From NCBI GenBank assembly GCA_021821045.1, contig JAKACW010000011.1:1-64000 (forward strand): a stretch of 64,000 bases of DNA, written 5' to 3'. Below are positions 5,701 to 41,769 of this stretch, piece by piece. Both the position numbers and the translations under genes were made by a program. The stretch comes from Pseudomonadota bacterium. Lineage in GTDB: Bacteria; Pseudomonadota; Gammaproteobacteria; JAADHS01. Positions within the stretch are counted from its first letter, which is position 1. Each line of letters begins with the position of its first letter. The notes beneath the pieces are model-generated. The model saw nothing but the letters and a program-made list of their open reading frames with translations, was not told where the DNA came from and did no database searches.

Positions 5701-6350
5701 GTTCCTTCCTCGTCTTTTTGTTGTCACGACGCAGGACGAAAAATTTCTCGCCGGCGTTACCGTTAGTAATCGACTCCTTTCTATATAAGTTTAGTATCAT
5801 AATCAATCGACTAGTGTCCTTGATGGCAACTGGTGTCGAGCGCGAGAGCGGGCCTTCTCGGCGCGACCATCCTTGATCAGACATAGCGTGTGAGCAGCGC
5901 GCCCGGCGCCGGATTCCAAGCGCAGTTCGATCGCCATCGGAACTAAAATTGGCCATTTAAAGACCAAGGTGAAGGAGTCGGTGAGGCACGACGTCGGTGC
6001 CATTCGCGAGGCCTTATCTCGGTTTACTACTACTAACTATAAGAAAAATATGTAGTCGCGGGGCCGAAAAACCGTCAGGTATAATACGAGAACCGCTAAA
6101 CCCCCATGGTTTATGTGCTCAAGGCGGTCAGGAGACGACCGATAACCAACCCGAAGCGCCTGATTTGTCGGCAAATTAGCGCTCTGCGATTTTAAGGTTG
6201 TGTCCAAGAACGAAGAGAGCGCGAGCATGAGAGGGTTGGTGGCGCGATGGGTACCCTGATTGAGTCACGGCGTGTCCCGCTCGCGGGCGCAGTTATTGTT
6301 GCCGCTTGCGTGGCGAATCGAGCACAGAAGCACGGCCGGTGGAGCGCAGC
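5701..6350. other. Divergent intergenic region between the PilZ gene and the receiver-adaptor fusion gene
   Basis: About 650 bp with no convincing coding sequence on either strand; short open frames here lack start sites and family features. It must contain promoters for both flanking genes, which point away from each other. A perfect TATAAT at 6080-6085 on the plus strand is a possible -10 box, but no good -35 hexamer lies at the right distance. If used, it would give a leader of about 260 nt before the fusion gene. No known RNA family was recognised. Confidence 0.4.
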
Positions 6351-9300: not shown

Positions 9301-10970
9301 GGGAAATGTTGGGCGAATCCGGGCATGAGGTGGATCACTTTTCCTCGCCTGAGGAAGCGCTCGATGCACTGATGGAAAAGAAATATGACGTGTTACTGGC
9401 CAGTCAAATCGTCGCCCTCGGCGGCTTGGACTGCGAGAGCCTGATCACCACCGTTCGTTCGGCCGGCCAACCGGACAAGCGGGCGATTCCCATTGTGGCC
9501 ATCACGGCCAACGGCGATCCGGCCAATCTGCAGGGCTTTCGCAATGCGGGCGCTGATGACGTGGTCGTGAAACCCGTCGAAGGCAATTTGGGTGACCGAC
9601 TCAAGACGGTCATTAGGACGCGTCCTCCGGGCGGCACTCGACCGAACTTGCGCGTCGTACCCCCGGCGACCGCAAAGCCGGCGAGTTTGCCCAAGCCCGG
9701 TGCGGCGGCTTCCGCGACAGTGGCCAAGCCTGCTGTGGGACTTCAGGATTCGATTGGGAAGTTGGGTCACCCCGGCAAAATCGCGCCGCAACCGACGCCT
9801 GCTGCCAAAAAGCCCAGCTTGGCGGATTTGCTCGAAGGCAAGCAGCAGCCGGCCGCATTGCCGGCGTCTCGACCGGCGGAGACTCGCGCGTCGGGGTCTG
9901 ATCGCAAGATCATTTATGCTTTGGTTGCCGCGGGCGTTTTTGCAGTGGTCGCTTCGACATGGCATCACTTTGGCGAGCACGTTCCGGTCGACGTTGTGAC
10001 GGTTGAGTCGGGTCCGATTTTCGAGGCCATCAGCGCGCCGGGTCGGGTCGAAAGCAAGCGCAAAGTCAACTTGACGACTGCGTTTCCCGGTCAGATCACC
10101 AAGGTCACCGCAAAGGAGGGCGACACAGTCACCCGTGGCGACGTACTCGCGACCTTGGATGACCGCACCGCGATCATCGGACTGCAACGAGCGGAGGCTC
10201 AGTTGGAGAGCGCCAAGCGCGAAGTCGCTTTGACCGAGCGAACCTTGGACCGTTTGGTGCGCGCCTTGCAGATGGGCGCCGTGTCTCGACAAATGGCGGA
10301 AGATGCCGAAGCGGCGGTACATGCCTCGCGGGCCAAACAACGGGTCGCCCAAGAAGAGGTTAACGCGGCGCGATTGTCGTCCGAGCGCGTAAATGTTACC
10401 GCGCCGTTTGACGGAACGGTAACGGTGTCGTATGCCGTCGAAGGCTTATGGGCCGAGCCGCCCGGTCCGTTGTTTACCATCGTGGACATGGAGCAGCGGG
10501 AAGTCGAGGTACGCGTCGCCGCCGAGGACAGCTCGCGCCTGAGCGTCGGACAATCGGTTACCCTGACGAGCGATGCGTTTCCGGAGCATCAGTGGAACGA
10601 AGAGATCGTTCGTATTGCGCCGGCGGCCAGTCGCGATACCGGTATGGCCAATACCGTGAGCGTCTACATCAGCCTTGGTCCGGACGCGCCACCGCTGCGC
10701 TACGGGCAGCAAGTCGATGCCCAGATCCGTACCGCCTCGAGCAACAATGCGATGCGTGTTCCATACGACGCGGTGACGCAGCGTAACGGGCGCACGATGG
10801 TTGCCGTGATCGAGGAAGGCCGTGTTCACTTCATACCGGTTCGAACCGGCATCGAGTCTCCGACTCATATCGAAGTGCTCGAGGGGCTGAAGCCGGGCCA
10901 ACAAATTGTGCTGCTGCGAAAAGACATCGAAGAGGGCGCTCGGGTCGAACCGGTCGAGATTCCCGGATAG
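6351..10970 (+). CDS. Fusion protein: six receiver-like domains plus MacA/HlyD-type periplasmic adaptor
   Basis: 1,539 residues, starting at ATG 6351 behind GGTGGAG. Residues about 22-145 form a divergent receiver-like domain. A long Ala/Pro-rich linker follows, then five similar receivers starting near residues 407, 542, 679, 819 and 968, each opening with FLEDSCTSSHAIREMLG. After a second Pro/Ala linker comes one membrane segment (about 1187-1204, IIYALVAAGVFAVVAS), then a membrane-fusion-protein body: barrel-sandwich hybrid (GRVESKRKVNLTTAFPGQI, APFDGTVTVSYAVEGLWAEP), a helical hairpin and beta-barrel (VEVRVAAEDSSRLSVGQSV). The topology puts the receivers in the cytoplasm and the adaptor in the periplasm. 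The phospho-acceptor Asp is absent from all six receivers (Ser in five, Asn in the first), while the KP lysine is kept in the five repeats. The ATPase gene starts 6 bp downstream, so this is the adaptor of that transporter. Confidence 0.9.
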   Translation: MNFDSLSDVSDGEEKGGAESPRLCLIEDVVHSSGSDRASLERLGFRVDAFSVTDDALNAILRGNYDLALVNFASPARGMGGPELIGLIRGCGHPVVSRLPVVAVIGARQIAHAAKIMALGVDEVVADPIDLVDLSQRVRRLASRGVQPAGKVVGAESKFSEGPSDTHAREEYALGNEHSRVGPARQYDNVVIAMKQKQNLAQGSGDDSLSGEKRGLLERWGDKILQRLAKTADDTPAENVTFAAPPPAATDREKAISDALRNLGQPASPAAKTSAPVPPAVPANSMSAATPAARVAPTARPNPRQPAAGNGPKQGYVSPVKWRTMPPTLAGAKPAPARTPELTGAGVATRTPQKAAAAAVRSPSGSDDVRLSPAEKNKVYERVRNLISTARETAADKTPRKRVTKTLKVCFLEDSCTSSHAIREMLGESGHEVDHFSLAEEALDALKEKEYDLLLASEVEAVGGMDCHALIKAVRNAAQAIKRNLPIIVLTAKGDRANVQSFIAAGANEVIVKPVDGKKLNDQILTVVTVQRMPVRGVKKSLSICFLEDSCTSSHAIREMLGEAGHEVDHFSSAEEALDAVLEKGYDVLLASQIVALGGMDCEGLVRTLRNSSNPAARTLPIVVITANSDPSNLEAFYMAGASDVVVKPIEGKELNGRIREVVQTVPAHDLTPRPRRNFRICFLEDSCTSSHAIREMLGNEGHEVDHFNSAEEALDAIMEKDYDLLLSSQIVALGGMDCEGLVKTIRGSKQPAKRQLPIVVITANAESANLDTFFKAGANDVVVKPIEGKALNERIQQTITAKTEALPFTAPTPAPKNLKVCFLEDSCTSSHAIREMLGEAGHEVDHFSTIEEALDAFLEKDYDILLASQIPTLGGMDTEGLIKEIRISKKPGKAKKPIAVLTTDTSAENLNAFRAAGANDVMTKPVKGDLGERLRATIENRGKAVTRPARTSAAPAVPPPVVVPKNLKVCFLEDSCTSSHAIREMLGESGHEVDHFSSPEEALDALMEKKYDVLLASQIVALGGLDCESLITTVRSAGQPDKRAIPIVAITANGDPANLQGFRNAGADDVVVKPVEGNLGDRLKTVIRTRPPGGTRPNLRVVPPATAKPASLPKPGAAASATVAKPAVGLQDSIGKLGHPGKIAPQPTPAAKKPSLADLLEGKQQPAALPASRPAETRASGSDRKIIYALVAAGVFAVVASTWHHFGEHVPVDVVTVESGPIFEAISAPGRVESKRKVNLTTAFPGQITKVTAKEGDTVTRGDVLATLDDRTAIIGLQRAEAQLESAKREVALTERTLDRLVRALQMGAVSRQMAEDAEAAVHASRAKQRVAQEEVNAARLSSERVNVTAPFDGTVTVSYAVEGLWAEPPGPLFTIVDMEQREVEVRVAAEDSSRLSVGQSVTLTSDAFPEHQWNEEIVRIAPAASRDTGMANTVSVYISLGPDAPPLRYGQQVDAQIRTASSNNAMRVPYDAVTQRNGRTMVAVIEEGRVHFIPVRTGIESPTHIEVLEGLKPGQQIVLLRKDIEEGARVEPVEIPG
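7569..9620 (+). repeat. Five tandem intragenic receiver-domain repeats
   Basis: Five direct, diverged copies of a receiver-domain coding unit begin at 7569, 7974, 8385, 8805 and 9252, that is 405 to 447 bp apart. The first 30 or so residues of each copy are nearly invariant, while linkers and C-terminal thirds vary. Codon-level divergence between copies shows that the array is not a simple assembly duplication. Internal recombination between copies could change their number. Confidence 0.9.
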
Positions 10971-10976
10971 GAGCCA

Positions 10977-11657
10977 ATGATCTCCTTACAGGGTGTTAGT
11001 AAGGCGTACAAATTAGGTGACACGATCGTTCCGGTTTTGCGCGGCGTCTCGCTGGAGATTGCGCCGGGACAATTTATAGCCATCACCGGACCCTCCGGGT
11101 CGGGTAAATCCACTCTGATGAATATTCTCGGACTGCTCGAATCCTATGATTCGGGCAGTTACCGTTTTTGGGGCCACGACGTCTCCACCATGACGGACGA
11201 TCAACTGGCCGGGCTGCGTAATCAGCGCATCGGTTTTGTGTTCCAGTTGTTCAACTTGATTCCTCGTCTGAACGCCTTGCGCAATGTGGAGATTCCTCTG
11301 ATGTACGCGGGAGTTGGTACAGCGGAGCGGCGCCACCGTGCGCAGATCGCGCTGCAACTGGTGGGATTGGGCGAGCGTATGGATCACACCGCTTCGCAGT
11401 TGTCCGGAGGACAGCAGCAGCGCGTCGCCATCGCGCGCGCCTTGGTCACTGATCCGGAAATCATCATCGCCGACGAGCCAACCGGGAGTTTGGATTCTCA
11501 GACCTCCCATGACATCATGGCGTTGCTGCAGACCCTCAACCAAAGCGGCAAGACCGTTATATTGGTAACCCACGAAGACGAGATCGCGGCCTACGCCAGC
11601 CGCATTATTTATCTGCGCGATGGTGAAATCCGATTGGATCACCAGTCCACTACATAA
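10977..11657 (+). CDS. ABC transporter ATP-binding protein, MacB/LolD-like
   Basis: 226 residues; the nucleotide-binding subunit of a split MacB-type exporter. Walker A is GPSGSGKS, the signature is LSGGQQQR, Walker B is [12 protein letters not shown] and the switch His is in VTHED. The ATG at 10977 follows GGAG by a few bases and lies 6 bp after the adaptor stop codon, so translation is probably coupled. Lengths and motifs fit the family that energises FtsX-type permeases used for macrolides, peptides, lipoproteins or siderophores. The substrate cannot be told from sequence. In E. coli MacB this domain is fused to the permease; here it is separate. Confidence 0.93.
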
Positions 11658-11667
11658 GGCCGCAACG

Positions 11668-12924
11668 GTGTACCGTCCCACCTTCACACGTTTTTGGCTC
11701 GACTCGCTTGAACAGGCGATGTTCGCACTGCGCGAGAATCGGCTCAGAACGCTCTTGAGCATTCTCGGCGTGATGATCGGCGTTTTGGCGGTGATCGTCG
11801 TGGGGACGGTGGGCAAGACGGGTCGCGACATGGTATTCGCGGAGTTCCAGACATTCGGTCTCAACGCGATGTGGATTTATCGCTTTTGGGGTGAGCAGCA
11901 CCCCTTCGCCAGCGTTCCGGCGGGGAGCGGGATAACGACCGAGGACGTGATGGCGATACGAGCCGGGGCCTGTTGTCCGGCCGTCTCCAGGGTCAGCCCG
12001 TGGGTGTACACCAACCCTTGGGAAGTGCTCATCCGCGTGGGCAATCGCTATAGTCGAATTAAAGTCGATGGCGTCGACGTGGACTACTTCAACATCGTGA
12101 ACGAAGAAGTCAAATATGGTCGCCTTTTTCGCGAGGACGATATTCGCGACCGCAAGCCGGTGGTGCTTATCGGCACCAAGGTCCAAGAGAGATTCTTTTC
12201 GATGAACTCAAATCCGGTGGGCGAGTCCATCCGGATGGGCGACATCCGTCTGACGATCATCGGCGTGCTCAAAAACAAAGATCGACAATTTCTTTCCTCC
12301 ATCGGCGCCGTCGCCTACGACGTCAATGATCGAATCGTCATCCCCTATTCGCTCTATCAGCAAGTCCTCGCTTCCAAAGATGTCCACACATTGGTGGCAG
12401 AAGCCAAGGATACCTCGCTGGTCCAGTCGGCGTTGCAGCAGATCAACTCCTTCCTTACCCGAAAGCACGGAGGCAAGTATGCGTATATCTTGGAGGACAT
12501 GCAGACATGGGTGGAAACTGCCAACCGCTACCTCCGCATTATTACGGTGATCGGCGTTGTGGGCGCCGGCGTGTCGTTGTTGGTCGGCGGCTTGGGCATC
12601 ATGAATATCATGGCGACCTCTGTGGTCGAACGTACCCGCGAGATTGGCATTCGCAAAGCCATTGGCGCGCGGCAAAAAGACATTTTGTCGCAGTTTATTC
12701 TCGAGGCCTTATTTATCAGCGCCATCGGCGGCGTTTTGGGTTTGGCGTTGGGTTTGGTGGTCGGCCTCATTGCCAGTTCGACGCTGGGGATCAGCCTCAT
12801 GCCGCCTTTTTCGTTGCTCATCATCGCCGTGGGCGTGGCCAGCCTCACCGGCATCGTGTCGGGATACTACCCGGCCAAACGGGCGGCCGCAATGCGTCCG
12901 GTGGACGCGCTGCGCTACGAGTAG
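11668..12924 (+). CDS. ABC transporter permease, MacB/FtsX family
   Basis: 418 residues from the GTG at 11668 (MYRPTFTRFWLDSLEQAM), 10 bp after the ATPase stop; an ATG at 11620 would overlap the ATPase gene and is less likely. There is one N-terminal membrane segment (LLSILGVMIGVLAVIVVGTVG), then a large periplasmic MacB core domain, then three C-terminal segments in the FtsX arrangement. The coupling region VERTREIGIRKAIGARQKDI and the terminal PVDALRYE are characteristic. With the adaptor and ATPase it completes a tripartite inner-membrane assembly; no outer-membrane TolC partner is encoded nearby. Confidence 0.92.
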   Translation: MYRPTFTRFWLDSLEQAMFALRENRLRTLLSILGVMIGVLAVIVVGTVGKTGRDMVFAEFQTFGLNAMWIYRFWGEQHPFASVPAGSGITTEDVMAIRAGACCPAVSRVSPWVYTNPWEVLIRVGNRYSRIKVDGVDVDYFNIVNEEVKYGRLFREDDIRDRKPVVLIGTKVQERFFSMNSNPVGESIRMGDIRLTIIGVLKNKDRQFLSSIGAVAYDVNDRIVIPYSLYQQVLASKDVHTLVAEAKDTSLVQSALQQINSFLTRKHGGKYAYILEDMQTWVETANRYLRIITVIGVVGAGVSLLVGGLGIMNIMATSVVERTREIGIRKAIGARQKDILSQFILEALFISAIGGVLGLALGLVVGLIASSTLGISLMPPFSLLIIAVGVASLTGIVSGYYPAKRAAAMRPVDALRYE

Positions 12925-31399: not shown

Positions 31400-31488
31400 G
31401 CCCGGGTGGCGAAATTGGTAGACGCAAGGGACTTAAAATCCCTCGACTGGAGACGGTCGTACCGGTTCGATTCCGGTCCTGGGCACCA
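31400..31488 (+). tRNA. tRNA-Leu (anticodon TAA), insertion site of the element
   Basis: An 89-base class II tRNA with acceptor stem GCCCGGG/CCTGGGC, anticodon loop CTTAAAA giving TAA, a long variable arm and encoded CCA. Its 3' half is the left copy of the 58-bp att repeat. The tRNA is complete and should be functional after integration. Confidence 0.95.
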
Positions 31489-31489
31489 A
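31432..31489 (+). repeat. attL: 58-bp tRNA-Leu 3'-end direct repeat
   Basis: Exactly repeated at 41712-41769. It runs from the anticodon loop to one base past CCA. The base before each copy differs (A versus G) and so does the base after (A versus T), so the boundary is sharp. This is the usual outcome of tyrosine-integrase insertion into a tRNA gene. Confidence 0.95.
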
Positions 31490-31546
31490 AAAAATCAAGA
31501 CGTTAGCGAATGGCGTGGCCGCCAAGTCTCGGCGCGAAAACAAAGC

Positions 31547-31573
31547 GGGTCTACGTAGGGTCTACACCCTACG
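31547..31573. other. Direct and inverted repeats near attL (candidate integrase arm sites)
   Basis: GGGTCTAC occurs at 31547-31554 and 31558-31565, 11 bp apart. An inverted repeat with 8-bp arms, CGTAGGGT and ACCCTACG, spans 31554-31573. The same octamer occurs near attR (41487, 41573). Position just inside attL suggests integrase or excisionase binding, by analogy with arm-type sites. Confidence 0.4.
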
Positions 31574-31621
31574 CCAAGCAGCGTTGACACCCAGCCCGCC
31601 GCCGCCTACAGTGAATGTAAG

Positions 31622-31788
31622 GGCTCAAAACCCAGCATAGAGCGGACACCACACCCGACAGTCTCGTGGTTTTTTTATGTCTATCCTTCGTCGGGCGTGC
31701 GGCTAATACAATACCCTTTCGGGGGGAATATGCCCGCCGTCTCTGTGCGGTTTTGAGCGCCCGACACCATCTTAATTGGCTCAAAACC
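31622..31788. repeat. Three copies of GGCTCAAAACC upstream of the left-end gene
   Basis: GGCTCAAAACC at 31622-31632 and again at 31778-31788, plus an inverted 10-bp match (GGTTTTGAGC) at 31749-31758. The last two could form a 10-bp stem with a 20-nt loop. They lie in the 320-bp non-coding stretch before the plus-strand gene at 31808 and could be operator or replication-protein sites. Confidence 0.4.
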
Positions 31789-31807
31789 ATTCACGGAGAG
31801 AGACACA

Positions 31808-32254
31808 ATGAACACCAAACAGCCTGCAATGATTCCACGGTCCGATCTTAGCGTCACGGATGCGCTTGACGCGCTACAGTCCCGGCTTTGCCAAGCGAAC
31901 GACGTCGTTACAGTGATGGTCGACGACGACTTCGACACATTGGCAACGCCGGTCAAAGTCGGGGTCGCGTGGTCCGTTCAGCAATCCATCGAGGATAGCC
32001 GCGAGCTGGTCGAGCACCTATGGAAGAAGGTCCGGCCGCTGGTCAACGCCAGCGAGAACGACTTCGCCGGGCATGAACTGACCCTGCCCGAGCACATGGA
32101 GCGGGTCGACTACATCACTGCCGCCATAAAGGAATTCATCGCCGCGGCGGATCGCTTCCCCCAGGTCGACGACGTTGATGAACTGGTGGGCAAGGTACTA
32201 CCGAAAATGGTCAAGGCCCGGCAATTCGGCGAACCTCACCAGCCCGCGCAGTAA
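31808..32254 (+). CDS. Unknown acidic protein, only plus-strand gene of the element
   Basis: 148 residues with a good ribosome-binding site (GGAGAG). No family recognised. The N-terminal part (LSVTDALDALQSRLCQANDV) and the rest look helical and acidic; there is no signal peptide or membrane segment. It is the first gene inside attL, transcribed towards the tail-tip gene, and ends at a clear terminator. Cargo or a regulator are both possible; position alone does not decide. Confidence 0.72.
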   Translation: MNTKQPAMIPRSDLSVTDALDALQSRLCQANDVVTVMVDDDFDTLATPVKVGVAWSVQQSIEDSRELVEHLWKKVRPLVNASENDFAGHELTLPEHMERVDYITAAIKEFIAAADRFPQVDDVDELVGKVLPKMVKARQFGEPHQPAQ

Positions 32255-32277
32255 ACCCGTTTCGCTGTACCAACTCA

Positions 32278-32302
32278 GACCCGCCTAGCGCGGGTCTTTT
32301 TT
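32278..32302 (+). terminator. Rho-independent terminator
   Basis: A seven-base-pair GC-rich stem (GACCCGC with GCGGGTC) and a 5-base loop, followed by six T. It ends the plus-strand gene and overlaps the last codon of the opposing tail-tip gene. Confidence 0.9.
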
Positions 32303-34823
32303 ACCCCGTGTACAGCCTGATCGGCAACGACCGCAACACAGGCGGTGCCGTTCCTGATTTCGTTCCGGTCACTTTCACTTTGAGATACCGCAGCGTGACG
32401 GCCGAGCCGGGTATCGCGCCGAATCCGGCGTATGAGCCCGCTGCCGTTTTGTAATCAACCGTGATCGCCGCTGTTGCCGAATTGATACCGGCCGCGACAC
32501 CGATAACGACAAGCGTATCTGCGCCGATGTCGATCTCGGTGTGCTCATAGGTAATCGTCGCCGCTGGCGACATATTCCACTGCGTCCACCCGTCCCACGT
32601 AGAGCGGTCGTTCCACGTCGCCGAGTCGGTCGCCTCGAGTGATGCGCCGGTTGACAGGAAGCAATTTGTTTTTGTTCCAGGCCACCCATCGAGATGCGGA
32701 TCTGTGCCGTACACGAGCGACCCGAGTCGCGGGTTCCCCAGCTCGTAGTCTGTCAACAGCCGCGCATTAACGCTTTCGTTGCCGCTCGTGTCGACCGCCT
32801 TGCACGCGAAATTGTACGAGCCGGCCAGTAGCTGATTGGTCTCCCACGGTGACGAGGTCAGCACGTCGGTATGTAGCGCCGTCATGTCGTCCCATGCGGT
32901 TTCTGTGGCGTGGTAGCGGATCACGTACCCCCACAAGTCAACCGGGGGGTTATCGATACCGAACCGAAACTCGCGCGTACCATCGCCCTGCACGGCCAGT
33001 GAAAACGTCGTCACATCGGGCGGCGGCGCAGTCTTTCCGACAATCGTATGGTTGAGCGCCGATACCCATTCGGACGAGCGCCCGAAGGTGTTGATTGCGC
33101 GAATTCGAAAATCATAAGCAACGCCGTCCGCGACGCCGGACAAATACACTTCCTCGGTGAGTCGGCCATGTACGAAAAACGCGGGCAGGTAGTTCGCATC
33201 GATGCTTCGCTTCATCTCGACGATGTAGCCCGTGACATAGATCGAGGTCGACGCCGTCCATGTCACGCGCACGCGCGTGAATATCTCGCCGGTTGCGATG
33301 GACTGTACGAGGTGCGTATCGCCAGAATTGATCTGTAACCCCGTCGGCGCATCGACCGTGAACGGACTGGGTAGCGTGGTATCCGGTTGGTTTCGCGCCT
33401 CGTCGCGCGCCGTCGCCGTGTAGGCGTTCGGCTCATGCTCGACCAGTCCAACGTCGACCAGCCCGGTCATCAGCAGCGACACGCTGTTGACGCGAAACAG
33501 CTTGCCCTCCCAGCCGGGCGTAGCATGCGTGACGTCGACTACATCTCCGGGCACGACCGTGAGCGCGGCGGGCGAGGCAAGGAACGAGCACCCCAGTTGT
33601 TGCCGCGATTTGTTCAGCGTAAGCTCGGCCTCGTTTAGCGCACGATAAACGTTCGTGGTCGCCGGCAACTTGAGCTCCAGTTCCAAAACCTCGCCGTTAT
33701 CGGCGGCGCGATAGGTCGCCGACTCAACAACCGCAACGTCCTGCTCCCAGTTTTTATCTGGGTTCGTAAACAGCGCCTTGACTCGGTTAAACCGCGCGCT
33801 CTTGCCGCCGTGCGAAATCAACAGTCCGCCGATGATGTTGTCACGGTCGAACGAGAACGTACTCGCAACGTCGCGGTCAATGCCAATCGTCCACCCGCCG
33901 CCCGCCTTGTAGACGCGGGCACGGCACGACGTTCCCAGGATTGCGATATTGTTCTTGACGGGCTGCGACGTATCGATCACCGCACCGCACGCGTGGCGAC
34001 GAATGCTGACGCCTACAGCCGGGGCAATCACTGTGTCACAATAATCCGCGGCCGCAGCGAACGCCGCCGCGTCGATCCCGCTGGTAGAGATGCCTTTCCC
34101 GTATCGCGTGTTCGTCAGCAAATCGTAGAGGCACAGCACGGGGTTTGCCGCATCGTCATATGACTGCGCGGTGTCGCCGATCCGAAAGTCCGTAACCATG
34201 CGTCCATAGACCAGCGCGTTGATGCGTGGAACGGACGCGATGCCATCCGTGTCGTATTTGATCCTGACGTGAACGTAGGCCGTGCCCGGCCCGGCGTGAT
34301 CGGCGGCTGTCCACTCCGCAAACGCCGCCGCCAGTGTCGCGCTCACCTCCTGATCCGTCGTCCCGGAAAACGTCTCAATGTAAACCGCGTCCGTATCGTA
34401 CTCGGCGCGGTAGTCGTCCTCCGTCGCGATCAGTGAATATTCCGTGTCATCCAACCACACGGTATAGATCGGCCATACCGGCCCCTCGCACAGCGCGACG
34501 ACGAGGTGTAGGTATTGGTTATCGCCCGACAATCCGCCGAAAACGACGGGGCCGCCGACGCGGCGCGTGCCGTAGACGAGCGGCAGGAATAGAGCGTTGC
34601 CGGTTTTGTTGATCCGAACGTCATAACTTGGTTCGCCGGCGTTAGGCGTCGGGAATTCCGGGCGCGCGAACAAATCCTTGAACGGCTCCCATATCTCATT
34701 GTCGATTTTCCGACCGACGCGGCGAACCTCGTCCTCGATGTCGCGCCCGACTTCGCGGATGTCGTCGCGCCGCTCTTGGACCCAATCAACGGCGTCGTCG
34801 AGGTGGTCCTTGATCCAACCCAT
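32301..34823 (-). CDS. Lambda gpJ-like phage tail-tip / host-specificity protein
   Basis: 840 residues, the largest gene in the element. The N-terminal third resembles gpJ-type central tail-tip proteins (GNALFLPLVYGTRRVGGPVVF, NALVYGRMVTDFRIGDTAQ, DLLTNTRYGKGISTSGIDAAAF). A middle region resembles fibronectin-type beta-sandwiches (VRVTWTASTSIYVTGYIVEMK, GVAYDFRIRAINTFGRSSEW). The C-terminal part is likely the receptor-binding region, of unknown class. GpJ fixes host range in lambda-like phages. The start codon shares one A with the terminase stop codon. No other tail gene accompanies it, which is unusual. Confidence 0.82.
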   Translation of the reverse strand: MGWIKDHLDDAVDWVQERRDDIREVGRDIEDEVRRVGRKIDNEIWEPFKDLFARPEFPTPNAGEPSYDVRINKTGNALFLPLVYGTRRVGGPVVFGGLSGDNQYLHLVVALCEGPVWPIYTVWLDDTEYSLIATEDDYRAEYDTDAVYIETFSGTTDQEVSATLAAAFAEWTAADHAGPGTAYVHVRIKYDTDGIASVPRINALVYGRMVTDFRIGDTAQSYDDAANPVLCLYDLLTNTRYGKGISTSGIDAAAFAAAADYCDTVIAPAVGVSIRRHACGAVIDTSQPVKNNIAILGTSCRARVYKAGGGWTIGIDRDVASTFSFDRDNIIGGLLISHGGKSARFNRVKALFTNPDKNWEQDVAVVESATYRAADNGEVLELELKLPATTNVYRALNEAELTLNKSRQQLGCSFLASPAALTVVPGDVVDVTHATPGWEGKLFRVNSVSLLMTGLVDVGLVEHEPNAYTATARDEARNQPDTTLPSPFTVDAPTGLQINSGDTHLVQSIATGEIFTRVRVTWTASTSIYVTGYIVEMKRSIDANYLPAFFVHGRLTEEVYLSGVADGVAYDFRIRAINTFGRSSEWVSALNHTIVGKTAPPPDVTTFSLAVQGDGTREFRFGIDNPPVDLWGYVIRYHATETAWDDMTALHTDVLTSSPWETNQLLAGSYNFACKAVDTSGNESVNARLLTDYELGNPRLGSLVYGTDPHLDGWPGTKTNCFLSTGASLEATDSATWNDRSTWDGWTQWNMSPAATITYEHTEIDIGADTLVVIGVAAGINSATAAITVDYKTAAGSYAGFGAIPGSAVTLRYLKVKVTGTKSGTAPPVLRSLPIRLYTG

Positions 34824-35317
34824 TAAGGAACCTCCTTCTCGGCGGGTCCGGTTCGCTCGGCAAGTTCAGGCAAACCATTGGTCGATAATTCCGACAAAGC
34901 TTCGTGAACCAGTCGTTCCGCCTCGATCTTGGTTTCATGTAGGCCCTGCGCAGATATGGCGACTTGCGCTAACTTCGTCGGCAACGCAATGAATCGCGAG
35001 CGCATCGCCGACAGCAGGCGTTGCCAGTATTCGGTCACGATGTCCGCATCAACCAGCCGGCCGCGGAGTTTGGAAACTTCCAGCTCCGTTTTATTGGCCT
35101 GCGCCGCCGCCAGTCGCGCGCGTTCGGCGGTCAGATCGAGGGGTCCCGCTTCCGCGTCAGAACCGCCGATCAAGATCGCCGGCAGCGCGTCTCGCGATTC
35201 GTACAACGTGGAATTCTTCGGCCCCGGGCGAGTGGGGAGCAGTTCACAGCGACGGCGCGCGGTGCGCGTGCTGGTCCCGGTCAGTTCTGCAAGCCGCGAA
35301 ACGGATTCCCAAGTCAC
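34823..35317 (-). CDS. Nu1-like terminase small subunit (DNA packaging)
   Basis: 164 residues. The N-terminus has a winged-helix look (SVSRLAELTGTSTRTARRR). A central ERARLAAAQANKTELEVSKLRG and VTEYWQRLLSAMRSRFIALPTKLAQ match the Nu1-type small terminase family, which recognises cos DNA and recruits the large subunit. No large terminase is present, so it would have to act with one from a helper phage. It overlaps the tail-tip gene by one base. A GC palindrome lies about 130 bp upstream. Confidence 0.78.
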   Translation of the reverse strand: MTWESVSRLAELTGTSTRTARRRCELLPTRPGPKNSTLYESRDALPAILIGGSDAEAGPLDLTAERARLAAAQANKTELEVSKLRGRLVDADIVTEYWQRLLSAMRSRFIALPTKLAQVAISAQGLHETKIEAERLVHEALSELSTNGLPELAERTGPAEKEVP

Positions 35318-35446
35318 TTAATTCCCCTTGTTGGTGTGATGCCTCTGTGGAGCGCTGTCTCTAGGAAAAGATCGCGGCGTACACCACCCGCCGTTTGTTA
35401 TTCCGTAGAAGGACCCGGGTTTATGTGCGGTCGTCCGAGTCACGCA

Positions 35447-35460
35447 ACCCCCTGGGGGGT
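35447..35460. other. GC-rich palindrome, candidate cos-type site
   Basis: ACCCCC and GGGGGT arms flank a TG centre, 130 bp upstream of the small-terminase start in a 150-bp gap between otherwise tightly packed genes. In lambda, cosN also lies just upstream of Nu1. The assignment is positional only. Confidence 0.3.
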
Positions 35461-35468
35461 ACCGCCCG

Positions 35469-35660
35469 CTACCCGAACGTGACATTGTGTTTCACGGATC
35501 GAACGAACCGCTCGAACGAGTGGCCATGCTCGGCCCGCAACTCAGGATGCCGCAACCAGGCGCGCTCAAGGTTGTTCATGATGCGTCGCTGGCGGCCGTC
35601 GTCGACGGATCGATACGCGGGCTGGGCCGTTGTGCGGAACCCGTCGGAATCGTCACTCAC
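35469..35660 (-). CDS. Small unknown protein of the element
   Basis: 63 residues starting at a GTG that overlaps the upstream stop codon (GTGA), the same overlap style as its neighbours. The core NNLERAWLRHPELRAEHGHSFERFVRSV has a plausible helical composition. No family recognised. Confidence 0.55.
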   Translation of the reverse strand: MSDDSDGFRTTAQPAYRSVDDGRQRRIMNNLERAWLRHPELRAEHGHSFERFVRSVKHNVTFG

Positions 35661-36169
35661 AACGCCACACCCGCCGCCTTGGCCTCAGCCGTCAGCGTCG
35701 CCAACTTGCCTTCGATGTCGGCGATCTTCGAATCAAGCGCCGCCAGTTGCTTCGTGCGCTCGGTCGTGGTCAACCCGCCTTGCGGGTAAGCATCGCTGGC
35801 GGCGAACCGCGCCAGACCGTCTTTGATTGCCGCGCCGAAGAAATACAGCGCCGCCTCGCGGTTAACGGCCGTGCCGTTGATGAAGCCGACGCGGTCAGTG
35901 TTCAGCATCGCCGGGTGATGGCCAGCGGCCGCGCGGCCATGCTCATGCGTGAAGTGCCTCAACACGTTCGCCAGTCCGCCCTCGAATTCCGTTGATGCCT
36001 GGTCAATGTACTGACCCATCGACTCCAAAAACTCAGCGGGCGCAACCGGAGCCGCGGCCACCACGTCGCGCTCTTGGCGAAGCGCTTCGAGCTGCTTTTG
36101 AAGTTTGGAGTGCTCGCTGGTGAGGCTGTTCAACGACTTTTTGATCAGCGAAAAATCGAACACGGTCAT
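35657..36169 (-). CDS. Unknown protein with coiled-coil ends
   Basis: 170 residues. The N-terminus (LIKKSLNSLTSEHSKLQKQL, EALRQERD) and the C-terminus (QLAALDSKIADIEGKLATLT) are coiled-coil-like. The middle (HGRAAAGHHPAMLNTDRVG) is not recognised. It overlaps both neighbours by 4 bases within the long minus-strand operon. It could be structural or a scaffold-like satellite protein, but no family supports that. Confidence 0.7.
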   Translation of the reverse strand: MTVFDFSLIKKSLNSLTSEHSKLQKQLEALRQERDVVAAAPVAPAEFLESMGQYIDQASTEFEGGLANVLRHFTHEHGRAAAGHHPAMLNTDRVGFINGTAVNREAALYFFGAAIKDGLARFAASDAYPQGGLTTTERTKQLAALDSKIADIEGKLATLTAEAKAAGVAL

Positions 36170-36453
36170 TTGCTCCCGTCGATGCGGCGGGCAAGCTTAA
36201 CCGCATTCCGCGCCTCGGCTCGGGCGAACGCGGAGTACAGCGCGAAGTCATCCAGAAACTCTTCACGCAAACCGGCGTCGCGGTCCCATTGTTGTTTGAT
36301 GCTGGCCTCGAAGGCGCCGCGGTCCGCGCCGTCATTGGTTGCGTCGGGATGGCGCGCGGCCTGCGCGCTCGGCGTGGCCGATGATTCCCCGAATTTGGCC
36401 TTGGTCCGTGCGACGGTCGCTTCGCGCATTTTGGAAAAAATGTTTTCGGTCAT
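36166..36453 (-). CDS. Small unknown protein of the element
   Basis: 95 residues from ATG 36453 (TENIFSKMREATVARTK), preceded by GGAACC; an earlier ATG at 36525 gives an implausible N-terminus. It is charged and helical (EEFLDDFALYSAFARAEARN). The stop overlaps the next start by ATGA. No family recognised. Confidence 0.62.
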   Translation of the reverse strand: MTENIFSKMREATVARTKAKFGESSATPSAQAARHPDATNDGADRGAFEASIKQQWDRDAGLREEFLDDFALYSAFARAEARNAVKLARRIDGSK

Positions 36454-36598
36454 GGGATCGGTTCCTTTTAAAAACCTCGGAGCCAGGCAGAGGATCCAGC
36501 CCCGAGGCGATGAGCACGCAAGCATGGACTGTTGCGCTTACAAAGAGCCGTCGGTGTACGGCTCGTCAGCAGGTCACCGCCCACTGACAGTTTCAAAG

Positions 36599-37054
36599 TT
36601 ACGCCGATTCGGTCGGTTCGTCACTGCGGTCGAATGCTGGGTTTTCTTTCAGCAGGTCGTGAAGCTGCCGGACGCTGGCGGGAATACCGACGCAGCACTT
36701 TTGCGCGCGCCAAAGATGCCGGTACAGTCCGGACGTTGGCGGCGTGGTCGGGTCCCAAATTGTGTCGATGAATATCTGGTAATGCGCGGCCAGCCGCTCG
36801 GCCCGTTGCCAGGGGTTAGGCGCGTCGATCAACGCCGCTGCCCGCATCAAATGCGCGTCGCGCTGCGCACGTCGTAGAGCGCGTCTTGCCGACGTTCCGC
36901 GAGAAGTCAGACCCAACGCCACCTCCAGGCGGCCGCCGTCGGAAACGTAGCCCGACAAGCCAGCCAACAACCACACCCGAACGTCGGCCGGCAGTTGGTC
37001 GCCGGATTCGAGCGCCGCCAAGCATTCGGCCAGCAGTGTGACGGGGTCGCTCAC
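36599..37054 (-). CDS. Unknown protein of the element
   Basis: 151 residues; its start overlaps the upstream stop by 4 bases. The N-terminal half (LLAECLAALESGDQLPADVR) and RGTSARRALRRAQRDAHLM are helical with a run of Arg. AAHYQIFIDTIW and KCCVGIPASVRQLHDLL follow. Similar small proteins occur in replication regions of phage and islands, but I cannot name the family. Confidence 0.62.
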   Translation of the reverse strand: MSDPVTLLAECLAALESGDQLPADVRVWLLAGLSGYVSDGGRLEVALGLTSRGTSARRALRRAQRDAHLMRAAALIDAPNPWQRAERLAAHYQIFIDTIWDPTTPPTSGLYRHLWRAQKCCVGIPASVRQLHDLLKENPAFDRSDEPTESA

Positions 37055-37266
37055 GCTTTTCGCTCAGACCCGCCAGCAGCCAGTTGGATCAGCATTTCGG
37101 CCGTTCGCGAATCGGCGCACGCCCTTTTGAATGATGCCGGGCAGGTGTCGCGCAGCTGGGCCAACAGCCGGCCGGCCACCTTGCGATGCTCAAGCGCCAA
37201 CCGGTCAAGTTCGGCGGCCGTGCTCAGGGTTTCGGCGATGGCGGTCACAATCTGCGCGCTATTCAT
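37051..37266 (-). CDS. Small unknown protein of the element
   Basis: 71 residues. The sequence (IVTAIAETLSTAAELDRLALE, HRKVAGRLLAQLRD) is helical. It is joined by 4-base overlaps to genes on both sides, which is the best evidence that it is real. No family recognised. Confidence 0.6.
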   Translation of the reverse strand: MNSAQIVTAIAETLSTAAELDRLALEHRKVAGRLLAQLRDTCPASFKRACADSRTAEMLIQLAAGGSERKA

Positions 37267-37529
37267 GGTTGGCTCCGCTGTTCGTTGCGGTAATCGTCGA
37301 TCAGCACCAGCTCGATGCCGTGTTCATCGATGGCGGCTTGGGCAAATCGCGCAAGCTCGGTCGTTTTCGTCTCGAACTCCACAGCCTCCGAGTAATTCAG
37401 ACCGGCCGTTGGCGGCGGTGACCATTCGGAAAAAACGCGTTTTCGGCCTTGGCGGTCGCGGGCGGCAATCGCCTTGACGACGTAGGGGCCAATCTGCCAC
37501 GTGGCGGTTATTGGGGTGGGATTTTTCAT
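37263..37529 (-). CDS. Small unknown protein of the element
   Basis: 88 residues with a beta-rich start (ITATWQIGPYVVKAIAARD) and a helical end (ELARFAQAAIDEHGIELVLID). It is linked to the AAA ATPase gene by a 4-base overlap. No family recognised. Confidence 0.6.
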   Translation of the reverse strand: MKNPTPITATWQIGPYVVKAIAARDRQGRKRVFSEWSPPPTAGLNYSEAVEFETKTTELARFAQAAIDEHGIELVLIDDYRNEQRSQP

Positions 37530-38998
37530 GGCTCAATGTCCCCGGTGGGGTCCGACGCACCGCATTCCGCCAATTCCGCCGTATTCCGCCGATCAATCCC
37601 GGCGGATTCGAGGGACCGGGGAAGAACGGGCGGCTCAATTCCGCCGCCGGTTCCCTCCTTATGGGCGGCGGAATAATAGAAGCCGGTTTCGACCGGCGGC
37701 TTACCAATGGGCGCTTGGGCTAATCCGCCGTATTCCGCCGGTGCGAGATAAGTTTTCCGGCGGCCTTGTCGTTCGGCGGCCGGCAGGTCAAGCTCAACGA
37801 TCCGATTGCTAACCACCAATTCGGTCAGAGCGGCGCGGAAGTCGTTGCGCGTCATGTTTGGCACGCTCGCTTCCAGGGTGTTCTTGGTGTGCTTTCGGCC
37901 TTGTTTGATCTGCGACTCAATGAACCTTACGACCTGGTCGGCATTGGCCCGTTGACTTTCCGCTTTGGTGGCGCGGTACTCGATAAAGCTTTCGAATCGA
38001 AAGCCAGTGCGGCGAAGCCAAATCTTGGGCAGGTTGGGCGGGGAATAGCTCAACTTAGGCCGCGCCAAAATTGCGATACTGGCGTCTGTTGACACCGTGC
38101 AACCAGCCGGCGGGCGATCCTTGTCGGCGTCATCCCACGCCTGGAGCACGGCCACCATGCGGGAGCCGTCAGGCAACGCCGAACCGCCGCGGCTCGAATA
38201 CTGATCGAGCGATTTTTCTCTGGCGTTGGCCTTGCCGACGTGAGCAATGAGTCTGACGCAACAATCGAACGCCCTAATTATTCGCCGCGCGGCCGTAATG
38301 ATGGCTTGTTCGTTGTCATTGATTTGGCCCTCGCTGGCTCCAAAGCTTACCAAAGGGTCAAAAACCACGCCTATCGGCGGATTGCCTCGGTAGGCGTCGA
38401 CGATGTTGTCGGCGAGCGAGGTTAGAATAATATTGCCGTCCCCGCACTGAACGAGCCGCACTTGTTCGCCGGTAACGTCCCAAAAACGCACCCGATCTAA
38501 AACGGTGTCGCGCTCATCGTCGGTCAAGTTCATCGCCCGCATGATCTCGCGCAGTCGCGCCGCCAACCGTGCGCGCTGGTCCTCAGAGGTGATAAAAAGC
38601 CACCATCCCTTCGCGTCGGCTTGCAGGCCGTGAACGGGGCGACCTAGAGCCATGCAGGTCATCTCGTACAGCATCAATGTGGTCTTGCCGGACCCGCCGG
38701 GCGCCGCGAGCACTGCGACATCGGCGTAAAGGTAATCGCGAACGAAGCACCGCGGGGCGAGGTCCGCCGATTCGAGTTCGGCGACCGTTAGGCGAGTCTC
38801 AGCGAAGGCGGGCGGTTTCATCGGATTGCGCCAGCCGGGAACCTGGATGGCCCGGTTCTGCGCGTCGAGCCGCTCAACTATTTGCTGCTTCGCCGCGATC
38901 TCGCCGGCAAGGTTTCGCGCCTCGGCGTCGAGTCGAGAAAGTTCGGCTCGACCGATCTCGGCGCGCATCGCTGCAAGGTCAACGACTTCGTCGGTCAT
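37526..38998 (-). CDS. RepA-like AAA (RecA-fold) ATPase, replication helicase candidate
   Basis: 490 residues with a strong ribosome-binding site (GGGAGG). An N-terminal coiled coil precedes a RecA-type core: Walker A APGGSGKTTLM near residue 100, Walker B IGVVFDPLVSF, and HVGKANAREKSLDQYSSRGGSAL, features of AAA_25/RepA-like helicases in plasmids, prophages and satellites. The C-terminal 150 residues have a helical, possibly winged-helix region (RNDFRAALTELVVSNRIVEL). It probably drives element replication together with host enzymes; no primase domain is seen. Confidence 0.82.
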   Translation of the reverse strand: MTDEVVDLAAMRAEIGRAELSRLDAEARNLAGEIAAKQQIVERLDAQNRAIQVPGWRNPMKPPAFAETRLTVAELESADLAPRCFVRDYLYADVAVLAAPGGSGKTTLMLYEMTCMALGRPVHGLQADAKGWWLFITSEDQRARLAARLREIMRAMNLTDDERDTVLDRVRFWDVTGEQVRLVQCGDGNIILTSLADNIVDAYRGNPPIGVVFDPLVSFGASEGQINDNEQAIITAARRIIRAFDCCVRLIAHVGKANAREKSLDQYSSRGGSALPDGSRMVAVLQAWDDADKDRPPAGCTVSTDASIAILARPKLSYSPPNLPKIWLRRTGFRFESFIEYRATKAESQRANADQVVRFIESQIKQGRKHTKNTLEASVPNMTRNDFRAALTELVVSNRIVELDLPAAERQGRRKTYLAPAEYGGLAQAPIGKPPVETGFYYSAAHKEGTGGGIEPPVLPRSLESAGIDRRNTAELAECGASDPTGDIEP

Positions 38999-39323
38999 TG
39001 TGAACCTCCCGCAGCGCGCGGCGTGCTTTTACTTGTTCAGGCGCGGTCAGCCAATAACGGGCTACCGACGTTGTGCCACCGAATCTGTTCGGCACACATT
39101 CGCGCTCGCGCTCGAAGCGGACGCCATGCTTCCGTTGAAGCGCGCTGATAGTGCTCGGTAAGCAATGGTCGCCAACGCGCTCGGCCTCAAAACGATTTTG
39201 ACTTGCGCCCGCGGCGAAGCGTTGAAGCTGCGCAGATTCTTTGGTATGCTTGAAACGTCGCGTTTCTGCTGTGCCCGCTCGGGGTGCGACCAACACCCCG
39301 GCGGCGATTCTCCCCGGTCTCAT
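38979..39323 (-). CDS. Winged-helix-like protein of the element
   Basis: 114 residues joined to the AlpA-like gene by a 4-base ATGA overlap and overlapping the next start by 20 bases. The segment LPSTISALQRKHGVRFERER and GTTSVARYWLTAPEQVKARRAL matches the small helix-turn-helix/winged-helix proteins common in phage replication regions. A role in DNA binding at the replication module is inferred. The N-terminal 40 residues are probably unstructured. Confidence 0.62.
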   Translation of the reverse strand: MRPGRIAAGVLVAPRAGTAETRRFKHTKESAQLQRFAAGASQNRFEAERVGDHCLPSTISALQRKHGVRFERERECVPNRFGGTTSVARYWLTAPEQVKARRALREVHNDRRSR

Positions 39324-39538
39324 GCGTCACCCCCGGGCTTCACTCGGTTCTCCGAGATGAAAGCGCGAAGATCCCCCATGCGGTATCGAATCTTGCGAAG
39401 CTTCACGAATGGAAGCGTGCGCCGGCCAGTACACCTCCACACGGCCAACGTGCTGGGTTTGACGCCCAACAATTCCGCCGCGGTCGTTGGATCAACCGTA
39501 GCGTCATCAGGGAGCGCGTAAACGTCGGAGAATTTCAT
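39320..39538 (-). CDS. AlpA-like/excisionase-type HTH protein
   Basis: 72 residues with a MerR/AlpA-type helix-turn-helix: TTAAELLGVKPSTLAVWRC followed by LPFVKLRKIRYRMGDLRAFI. In satellites and cryptic prophages AlpA-like proteins activate integrase or excision genes and the replication module. It opens the long operon that runs to the tail-tip gene, and two palindromes lie immediately upstream (39551-39615). GAGG precedes the start. Confidence 0.82.
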   Translation of the reverse strand: MKFSDVYALPDDATVDPTTAAELLGVKPSTLAVWRCTGRRTLPFVKLRKIRYRMGDLRAFISENRVKPGGDA

Positions 39539-39550
39539 ATTCGGCCTCGT

Positions 39551-39615
39551 TAATGTTTGTCAACATTACGAAGCCTATGGGTCGGCGCGTGTTTGAAATA
39601 GGTTCTAAAACCTAT
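39551..39615. promoter_or_regulatory. Two operator-like palindromes upstream of the AlpA gene
   Basis: Perfect 7-bp arms with 4-bp spacers: TAATGTT-TGTC-AACATTA (39551-39568) and ATAGGTT-CTAA-AACCTAT (39598-39615). Both share GTT-N4-AAC. On the minus strand the first palindrome contains TTGACA. They are probably binding sites of a repressor that controls the element's main operon; the repressor gene is not obvious. Confidence 0.6.
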
Positions 39616-39639
39616 CTCTGACAGGTAGGGTTTCGGAAC

Positions 39640-40230
39640 TTATAGCCAGTCGGCGCCGCGCATGACGGCTTTTCGGTAGTTGGGCGTTTTCTCCCCGGCA
39701 CACTCCAAGGCGAACCGCACGCAATCGGCATACGGGCTCGATTGTTCGTACTCCGCGCTGACGTACTTGGTCGGGGCCTGGTCGAGCAGATCCGCAAACA
39801 GTCGCCCGATCTTTTCGGCAAGGACGTTTTTAACCTCGCTCGATGGTCGTCCGCCTTGACTCGTACCAACATCCTCGGACGCAATGCCAATCGCTTCTGA
39901 CAGCGTTTCCAAGCGGCTTTGCAGGTCGACAAGAAACCGCTGGGGGTTTTGGTTAAGGTCGGCCGCCAATGCGCCGTGAACTAGGCCGTTTGTGTCAGTG
40001 GCAATGGTCCCAAGCGTTCGGGATAGGGCGGCCGCTTCCGTTTGGAGTCTGGCGAGGCAATCTCTCGCCTGTTTGGTCGTCGCCGGCCGCCGCGCCCGAA
40101 GATAGCCCCCGATCAGCGCTTGAAGCTCTGCGACAAACTCCACCGCCTTGGAGTCGGATCGGTCGCGTTTTATGATCTTCAATACCTCGGCGACTTGATC
40201 ACGCGAAAACGTAAAGGGCGCGTTATCCAT
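39640..40230 (-). CDS. Unknown protein following the integrase
   Basis: 196 residues. The start overlaps the integrase stop by 8 bases, so the two genes share a transcript. It is mainly helical (VAEVLKIIKRDRSDSKAVEF, VLAEKIGRLFADLLDQAPTK). I see no helix-turn-helix or catalytic motif. Its place between the integrase and the operators makes it a candidate control protein, but that is only positional. Confidence 0.68.
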   Translation of the reverse strand: MDNAPFTFSRDQVAEVLKIIKRDRSDSKAVEFVAELQALIGGYLRARRPATTKQARDCLARLQTEAAALSRTLGTIATDTNGLVHGALAADLNQNPQRFLVDLQSRLETLSEAIGIASEDVGTSQGGRPSSEVKNVLAEKIGRLFADLLDQAPTKYVSAEYEQSSPYADCVRFALECAGEKTPNYRKAVMRGADWL

Positions 40231-41515
40231 GACCCTGCCCCCGCGCCATGTCCTGAATGTTGGCCAGCTGGAGAAAACGTTGCGTGATCGCTTCCATAGC
40301 CGCTCTGAGCCGCTCCACGTCCCACGCCAGGTAGTGGCGGTCGGTTACGTCGCCTTGGTCTATTCGATGGTTCACCAGGCGCTTGAGGCAGTAAGCGCTT
40401 ATGTCGGTCGATTCTGCGACAGTGATAAATGTTCGGCGTAAGGCGTGGGGGGTGAATGCGGTCTTACTTGTTTTCGCAATTTTGGCCTGCCATGCGCGGG
40501 TGTCTGTTATGGGGTTGCTTGGGTCGCTGGCGGGAAATACCCATTTCGACTTGCTGGCGGCCTTGCGTACCCGTAGCAGTCTGACGAGGTAGTCGCTTAG
40601 CGGTAGCGCGACGGCCTCCCGGTTCTTCGGGTCATCGAGAAAATAGCTCCGGTCCTTGAGGTCTACGCGGTCCCACGTCAGCCCCATAGCTTCGCCGGCA
40701 CGCAAACCGGTCAGAGCGAGGAACAGGAAGAAATCGCGGGCGGTCGCCGCATCCTCGTCAAAGCTCGATCGGTCGGCCTCAAGGTTCAGGGTAGCGGCGA
40801 ACCATGCGGGGAGTTCGTGTGCCTTAACGAAATTCTTGCGAGGCGCGATTTTATGCCAAGACTTGGCGTGGCTGAGAATGGTCGCCGGGTTGCTGGTGAA
40901 GATCGGTTTCCCATGCTCATCATCGTAGGCGTGGTGCGCGAAGTTCAGCAACGCTCGAAGCATCCGGAAGGCATTATTGGCCCGTGCCTTGCTTTTCTTG
41001 GTCTGGCGCTCAAATCGTCGCTGTACGGCTTCTTTATCAATCCCGGCAATAGGGTTGTCCTTCCAGTCGTCGAAGGCTTCCTTGAGGTTGCGTTCATAGT
41101 CCTTCACGGTCGCCGGTTTCAGGTTGCTGCGGGATCGCAAGTAATCATTGAAAACGGTTTGTAGGGTTATGCCCGATTGCTCGTCGGCTCGCCGTTTTTT
41201 GATCGGGTCAACGCCTTCGACCATTTGCGCCAAGACTGAGGCGGCTTTCTTGCGGGCTTGTTCAATGGTCATGCCGTCGTAGTTGCCGGTGAATCGGCCA
41301 AGGGTTACTCGCTGGGGCTTGCCGCCATTGATTCGCCTGTAGACAACGAACGATTTGGCGCCGGTATGGGTGACGCGCAGAAGTAGCCCCGGGGTCATCT
41401 TGTCGCGGACCTCAAGGCGCTTACCGGGTTGCGGTATCGGAAGGGTGGAGAGGGCGTTTTTCGTGAAGGTGAAGCGGGTCTTGATCGGGTCTACAGTCGG
41501 GTGAATAGCGTCCAT
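40223..41515 (-). CDS. Tyrosine-family integrase
   Basis: 430 residues from ATG 41515; a longer frame starts at 41584, but its first 23 codons overlap candidate arm-site repeats and lack a ribosome-binding site. It has the P4/prophage integrase layout: an N-terminal arm-binding domain (TPGLLLRVTHTGAKSFVVYR), a core-binding domain (LQTVFNDYLRSRSNLKPATV) and the catalytic domain with TGLRAGEAMGLTW (Arg), HALRRTF (His, Arg), LVNHRID (His) and DRHYLAWD (Tyr). All catalytic residues are present, so it should be active. It sits next to attR. Confidence 0.93.
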   Translation of the reverse strand: MDAIHPTVDPIKTRFTFTKNALSTLPIPQPGKRLEVRDKMTPGLLLRVTHTGAKSFVVYRRINGGKPQRVTLGRFTGNYDGMTIEQARKKAASVLAQMVEGVDPIKKRRADEQSGITLQTVFNDYLRSRSNLKPATVKDYERNLKEAFDDWKDNPIAGIDKEAVQRRFERQTKKSKARANNAFRMLRALLNFAHHAYDDEHGKPIFTSNPATILSHAKSWHKIAPRKNFVKAHELPAWFAATLNLEADRSSFDEDAATARDFFLFLALTGLRAGEAMGLTWDRVDLKDRSYFLDDPKNREAVALPLSDYLVRLLRVRKAASKSKWVFPASDPSNPITDTRAWQAKIAKTSKTAFTPHALRRTFITVAESTDISAYCLKRLVNHRIDQGDVTDRHYLAWDVERLRAAMEAITQRFLQLANIQDMARGQGHG

Positions 41516-41580
41516 GTGATTTCGCATCCCCTGCGTGGTGAGCGTCCCTTGTGACCTATTCGGGGCTACGCGGGGTCTAC
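41487..41580. other. Right-end GGGTCTAC repeats (candidate integrase arm sites)
   Basis: GGGTCTAC at 41487-41494 and 41573-41580, plus a one-base-different form GGGGCTAC at 41562-41569. They mirror the copies at 31547 and 31558 beside attL. The 41487 copy lies inside the integrase coding region. Confidence 0.4.
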
Positions 41581-41711
41581 TCATTTGATGAAACTGGCGT
41601 AAAGTGTATTAAATATCGGGAATGAATGTAAAGAGGTAAATGCTTGTTTAGGAGGGAATTGTTAAAGACCGGAAGAAATGGGAAAAACTGCGAAAACACT
41701 GCGGAAGATAG

Positions 41712-41769
41712 CTTAAAATCCCTCGACTGGAGACGGTCGTACCGGTTCGATTCCGGTCCTGGGCACCAA
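41712..41769 (+). repeat. attR: 58-bp tRNA-Leu 3'-end direct repeat
   Basis: Exact copy of 31432-31489. It lacks the 5' half of the tRNA, so it is not a functional tRNA gene. It marks the right end of the integrated element. Confidence 0.95.

Follow-up and report, generated by a model that had tools for sequence, protein, structure and literature searches.

We found that an element of 10,280 bp (31490-41769) is integrated at a tRNA-Leu gene of a gammaproteobacterium (assembly GCA_021821045.1, contig JAKACW010000011.1; "the window" is the whole 64,000-nucleotide stretch that was analysed), that it carries its own integrase and replication ATPase, and that its sole recognisable virion-related genes are a small terminase gene (terS) with its cos and a gene for a gpJ-like tail-tip protein (J). 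The reading that we favour, and hold to be fairly probable as a whole, is that of a helper-dependent cos-type satellite which is packaged by means of its own TerS and builds its own J into chimeric tails. An earlier note, made from the sequence alone, had proposed a satellite with an intact J, and this proposal is well supported by the boundaries of the integrated element, its cos-terS arrangement, a sister element with a swapped module, the intact hub of J and a phage-like branch length.

Boundaries, gene content and class of the element

On either side the element is flanked by a 58-bp repeat that corresponds to the 3' end of the tRNA-Leu gene. Read from right to left, its genes run in the order integrase, 196-aa protein, AlpA-type HTH, AAA_25, p88, p71, p151, p119, p170, p63, cos, terS and J, with p148 on the opposite strand. 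The features are as follows.

31400-31488: tRNA-Leu(taa) gene (ARAGORN)
31432-31489: attL-like 58-bp repeat, the tRNA-Leu(taa) 3' end; direct repeat 100% identical with 41712-41769, spacing 10,280
31616-31790, plus strand: conserved non-coding stretch 5' of p148 (blastn, 76.6% identity with the sister element)
31808-32254, plus strand: p148, conserved backbone gene with no Pfam or PHROG match (50% identity with the 140-aa protein of the sister)
32277-32297: hairpin (8 pairs, 6 G-C) and T-run between the convergent p148 and gpJ genes, a probable terminator
32301-34823, minus strand: J, gpJ-like tail-tip or central tail fibre protein, 840 aa (PHROG, Pfam, AlphaFold2, Foldseek)
34823-35317, minus strand: terS, lambda-Nu1-like small terminase, 164 aa, N-terminal HTH (phrog_57, 3.2e-15; 43% to L008)
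35369-35417, minus strand: cos, with cosQ-like CGGGTCCTTC (35408-35417), then cosN-like AAACG-GCGGGTGGTGTA-CGCCGCG (sequence comparison)
35469-35660, minus strand: small ORF p63, its GTG start overlapping the p170 stop (ORF list, sequence reading)
35657-36169, minus strand: p170, coiled-coil protein with homologues in integrative elements L239 and L240
36166-36525, minus strand: p119, whose homologue adjoins the p170 homologue in L239 (E=1e-4)
36599-37054, minus strand: p151, whose homologue adjoins the p170 homologue in L240 (E=1e-6)
37051-37266, minus strand: p71, predicted ORF
37263-37529, minus strand: p88, backbone gene (27% to the counterpart in the sister)
37526-38998, minus strand: AAA_25 RepA/DnaB-like replication ATPase, 490 aa (PF13481, 2.1e-24; 60% identical copy in the sister element)
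39320-39538, minus strand: AlpA/HTH_17-type small regulator (PF12728, 2.4e-8)
39640-40230, minus strand: 196-aa protein (ORF)
40223-41584, minus strand: tyrosine integrase adjoining attR (PF00589, 8.4e-16; PF13356, 1.1e-14)
41712-41769: attR-like 58-bp repeat, exact copy of 31432-31489

Apart from terS and J, no tail, head or lysis match above the curated Pfam and PHROG cut-offs was obtained among the predicted proteins of the element, so the claim that J is its sole tail gene stands. A sub-threshold match of 29 residues in p170 to a tape-measure-like coiled coil (E=0.026) was left out of the count of tail genes. The possibility that p170 and p119 are head genes was considered and rejected, since neither gave a Pfam, PHROG or phage tblastn match and both occur in other integrative elements.

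The element has the general features of a phage satellite, as it is integrated and compact, lacks a complete virion gene set and carries a packaging-redirecting gene. It shares with Gram-negative PICIs the combination of int, an alpA-type regulator and a replication gene in one island; however, it has no Rpp-type packaging gene, the gene beside cos aligning instead with phage TerS through its C-terminal part, and it was not filed as a canonical PICI. Its J departs from the PICI trait of carrying no virion structural genes. None of the cf-PICI set (major capsid, portal, protease and terL) was found in the element with Pfam or PHROG.

The cos, terS and J genes

The J reading frame (32301-34823, minus strand) consists of 840 codons with an ATG start and zero internal stops. 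Base 34823 closes the TAA stop of terS and at the same time opens the ATG of J (TAATG), giving the one-base overlap that the earlier note had described. Just upstream of the J start lies AGAAGGAGGT, and in the junction, which reads ...GAGAAGGAGGTTCCTTAATGGGT..., a strong ribosome-binding site precedes the coupled stop and start codons. The protein matched phrog_31 ("central tail fiber J", E=1.2e-77), PF13550 (Phage-tail_3, 3.6e-11) and fn3 (1.4e-5), and among PDB profiles it matched pb3 (3.6e-60) and lambda J (1.9e-25). An AlphaFold2 model was obtained with a mean pLDDT of 77, the N-terminal 77 residues being low, and a Foldseek search with this model returned DT57C/T5 pb3 (1.8e-35) and lambda J (8iyk; 1.4e-29 over 841 alignment columns). 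The J of the element thus belongs to the gpJ type both by its sequence, which places the hub and FN3 region in the J family, and by the tail-tip hub fold of its predicted structure. It resembles lambda gpJ and T5 pb3 in sequence family, hub fold, FN3 domains and full length, but differs from them in residing in a satellite without the remaining tail genes.

The nearest relatives of this J are found in ordinary siphophage tail modules, namely L111 (41%), L112 (40%) and L113 (35%). The L113 protein (827 aa, from a complete tail module) has the same end point as the window J, whereas those of L111 and L112 have about 75 further C-terminal residues; the description of J as full length therefore holds with respect to L113. 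A C-terminal truncation, considered since several relatives are longer by 60-90 residues, was rejected because the L113 protein stops at the same point. Identity to L111-L113 was 35-41% over residues 55-300, 37-45% over residues 301-480 and 32-37% over residues 701-840, and the last of these regions also showed 34% identity to a gammaproteobacterial prophage-type J. In comparisons with more distant phage J proteins the hub was kept (about 27-42%) but the tip mostly was not (about 10-20%). A maximum-likelihood tree grouped the window J and L111-L113 in a clade of four (support 99/96); its terminal branch of 0.97 was similar to the 0.83 of phage L113. As judged from these comparisons, J is full length, its hub is intact and no decay is visible in it; of the two outcomes that the earlier note had named as damaging, loss of the hub on structural comparison with lambda gpJ was not seen, the hub being 35-45% identical to those of the nearest phages, and for the other, decay of the gene in relatives, no orthologous satellite J was found that could be compared.

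These data also bear on the proposal that J is a weapon, an excess of satellite J poisoning tail assembly or adsorption of the helper as a dominant-negative subunit and so protecting the host cell. Tail-assembly inhibitors that target J are known (Tai, PMC11364771), interference of a satellite with helper tails has a precedent in Rta of PLE11 (PMC12987554), and a J that is divergent yet keeps its hub could be taken up into mixed trimers. However, the inhibitors in both studies are not whole tail-tip proteins, and J is complete, including a receptor-binding end like that of L111-L113 which would be needless in an inhibitor, so that we regard this proposal as distinctly unlikely.

Upstream of terS, the cosQ word of the element, CGGGTCCTT, is identical to that in the right end of lambda, which reads CGGGTCCTTTCC; on the lambda sequence, we take GGGTCCT to be the cosQ core. 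The cosN-like part has two CG dinucleotides around 12 bases (CG-N12-CG), arranged like lambda ACG-GGGCGGCGACCT-CG and placed at +23/+26 in the element versus +28 in lambda, and by this comparison a lambda-type cos, with both cosQ and cosN, lies upstream of terS. The 7-bp cosQ of lambda is described as highly conserved, and the nick-flanking CGs of its cosN are conserved (PMC4669245). As judged by shuffling, a 340-bp stretch is expected to contain CGGGTCCTT by chance in about 0.1% of cases. As CG-N12-CG by itself is weak, with about 0.85 matches expected over the whole window, it was counted only for its place beside terS and cosQ.

The word CGGGTCCTT was also present 5' of related terS genes in L008, L009, L091, L093, L094, L095 and the L113 phage, and CG-N12-CG also in L008 and L009; the cos of the L113 phage has no exact CG-N12-CG, and some genes of this TerS type have no cosQ motif. 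As a possible trace of cosB, with its TerS-binding R elements, a TTTTCCTAG-like stretch was seen after cosN, as in L008/L009. More generally, CGGGTCCT (the lambda cosQ word; TGGGTCCT in L093) was seen 5' of Nu1-like terS in L091, L093, L094, L095, L008, L009 and L248, in phages of diverse proteobacteria, where a GC-rich near-palindrome often follows. Several viral contigs end ~50 bp upstream of terS; these ends were considered as physical cos ends and given no weight.

The TerS of the element aligned with phage TerS through the C-terminal region. Gram-negative cos-type PICIs such as EcCICFT073 (PMC6739421, PMC9026076) are likewise chromosomal islands with int, a replication gene and a lambda-like cosQ/cosN beside a TerS-like gene; they depend on a lambda-type terminase, as the element presumably does, and provide the precedents for cos piracy (PMC6739421, PMC9026076). 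In E. coli PICIs, however, Rpp binds the helper TerS (PMC6739421) and remodels it, whereas the element has an apparently complete TerS plus a tail-tip gene.

The junction of terS with J is a single instance in the collections searched, which weighs against the favoured reading. In the 80 viral J loci with a readable upstream gene, J always came after tail-module genes, mostly after an L-like minor tail gene or after the small gene that follows it, and terS stood directly 5' of J in 0 of the 80 and in none of the genome J loci or terS loci inspected. Single-protein scans of the viral and genome collections gave no close relatives of J or AAA_25, and no orthologous satellite J was found. At L209/L226 (G505:C399), one open frame fuses terminase-like and tape-measure-like sequence beside a truncated J; the locus is a decayed prophage or else a chimera made in assembly.

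A sister element and the origin of the cos-terS-J module

A sister element is present in the same genome at a tRNA-Lys (G000:C135, about 57911-67560; L034 12911 to L035 2560), where the 23-bp att repeats are exact and lie at a distance of 9,627 bp (~9.6 kb). The two elements have in common AAA_25 (60%), p148 (50%), p88 (27%) and the non-coding stretch (76.6%), and their integrases are only distantly similar. In place of cos-terS-J, the sister has a short gene in the terS position with no family match, a terL (phrog_9, 1.5e-23), a cement/head-type protein and a 219-aa protein; its further genes are an HTH, Prim-Pol+AAA_25, the p148 homologue and the integrase, and no capsid or portal gene was recognised in it. 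A gene beside it, at L034 11069-12448, encodes a protein of 459 aa that resembles the RuBisCO large subunit (by eye, form II-like), which suggests an autotrophic host.

Parts of the backbone recur elsewhere. AAA_25 was also found in other elements (G117, G175 and Chromatiaceae loci), and homologues of p170, p119 and p151 in L239 (G111:C18) and L240 (G137:C1), so that related backbone genes occur in integrative elements which have no J; p119, p170 and p151 thus make up a conserved module of non-phage-like islands. A Rhodocyclales element with a related AAA_25 (L057 13292-16768) has a 1158-aa protein of weak virion-structural similarity, possibly a further virion module, and the terS of a viral contig with a related AAA_25 (L063 7033-7614) is of a different type (phrog_309), so that this backbone bears yet another packaging module. 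Beside a tmRNA, L106 (G384:C16, about 3800-11900) carries int, AlpA, a primase-like gene (744 aa), a Nu1-like terS, SocA-like and small genes, with no J, and is a candidate terS-only satellite.

Because the backbone is common to the sister and to other integrative elements, the virion-related cassette is a unit set into a backbone of satellite type. This speaks against a prophage that shrank in place; on this comparative evidence, cos-terS-J is a swappable module. The alternative is a remnant of a lambda-type prophage, reduced by one deletion, from the terS end to the J start, that left cos-terS-J with no present joint function. Phages have cos 5' of terS, and their J overlaps the preceding L-like gene by 1-16 bases, so that a single deletion could make the junction; a decayed TerL-TMP-J fusion was seen at L209; and no helper was found in the genome. 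Against this, the replication, end and accessory genes are common to other integrative elements and to a sister in which the corresponding interval holds another packaging module; neither terS nor J is damaged, the ribosome-binding site is strong and the J branch length is phage-like; and a perfect TAATG coupling is rarely left by random deletion. We consider a remnant rather unlikely.

Possible helper phages, proposed chimeric tails and meaning

The favoured reading is that of a helper-dependent satellite. The helper prophage with a homologous gpJ for which the earlier note had suggested a search was not found, as neither a second J nor a GpA-type terminase was found in the 140-contig assembly; the helper is therefore presumably an outside phage, or lies in an assembly gap. 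Phage records with both a GpA terminase and a related J are L113 and L143, of which L143 also has a TerS related to that of the window, and phages of these two types are plausible helpers.

Starting from the integrity of the genes, the cos, the module structure and the J fold as the established parts, we infer the following course of induction, packaging, incorporation and benefit. When a siphophage that has a GpA-type large terminase infects the cell, the satellite would replicate, and its TerS would recruit the helper TerL to the satellite cos, bringing its DNA into helper heads. J would be translated right after TerS from the strong ribosome-binding site and would nucleate tails otherwise made of helper proteins, so that the satellite J is probably built into chimeric particles. 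As the usual partner of J, the L-like minor tail protein encoded immediately upstream, is absent from the satellite, its J must fit that of the helper. The likely gain would lie in controlling how tails assemble or adsorb: satellite particles may recognise receptors fitting the host of the satellite, or tails may still form when the J of the helper is blocked.

A further alternative keeps the satellite but has its J serve mainly to evade anti-tail defences of host or phage, as a resistant substitute for helper J, with receptor use unchanged. The same logic was shown for the tape measure protein of PLE11, which takes the place of a helper protein that Rta blocks (PMC12987554). Against it, Pfam and PHROG comparisons revealed nothing Tai/Rta-like in the element, although such genes are diverse, and we hold this proposal to be very improbable.

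Chimeric satellite tails have already been published. In PLE11 of V. cholerae, satellite TMP and baseplate hub were found in virions, joined with ICP1 tail parts (PMC12987554, Nature 2026). PLE11 is, like the element, an integrated satellite with its own tail proteins (TMP, tail assembly chaperone and baseplate hub); it differs in using central tail genes with the contractile-tailed ICP1, whereas the element has a sole siphophage J joined to terS and a lambda-type cos, and we set the PLE apart by this type of tail gene. Chimeric tails were shown for PLE11 and would be expected for the element. The Streptomyces satellite MiniFlayer (PMC10690885) also has its own tail fibre gene, but is not integrated, makes its own capsid and has podovirus-like fibres binding the helper neck. 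Capsid-forming PICIs (cf-PICIs) likewise carry virion genes and need helper tails, but they bring capsid and terminase genes (PMC10690885), whereas the element brings no capsid gene and supplies the opposite end of the particle. The sister element is closer to cf-PICIs (terS-terL-cement), yet has no recognised capsid or portal gene. The earlier statement that no satellite family was known with this combination therefore stood for the exact terS and J pair within the literature searched, and not for the general principle, which was known from PLE11 (PMC12987554) and MiniFlayer (PMC10690885). No satellite with a J gene was found in that literature, the coverage of which is incomplete, and the element is apparently the first with a siphophage J.

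Before PLE11 (2026), satellites were thought to simply take helper tails. We advance only tentatively, as a doubtful extension of the favoured reading, that helper-made siphophage particles with satellite DNA inside receive the satellite J as an adaptor, by which the satellite and not the helper decides which bacteria are entered, and that this adaptor is exchanged on the backbone for other virion modules, the sister being an example; the satellite J might re-target host range. A satellite with only a packaging specificity factor and a tail tip as virion-related genes would be the simplest chimeric-tail strategy, and would make testable whether satellite host range is uncoupled from that of the helper, while comparison with the sister element reveals one backbone on which the virion module can be exchanged as a unit.
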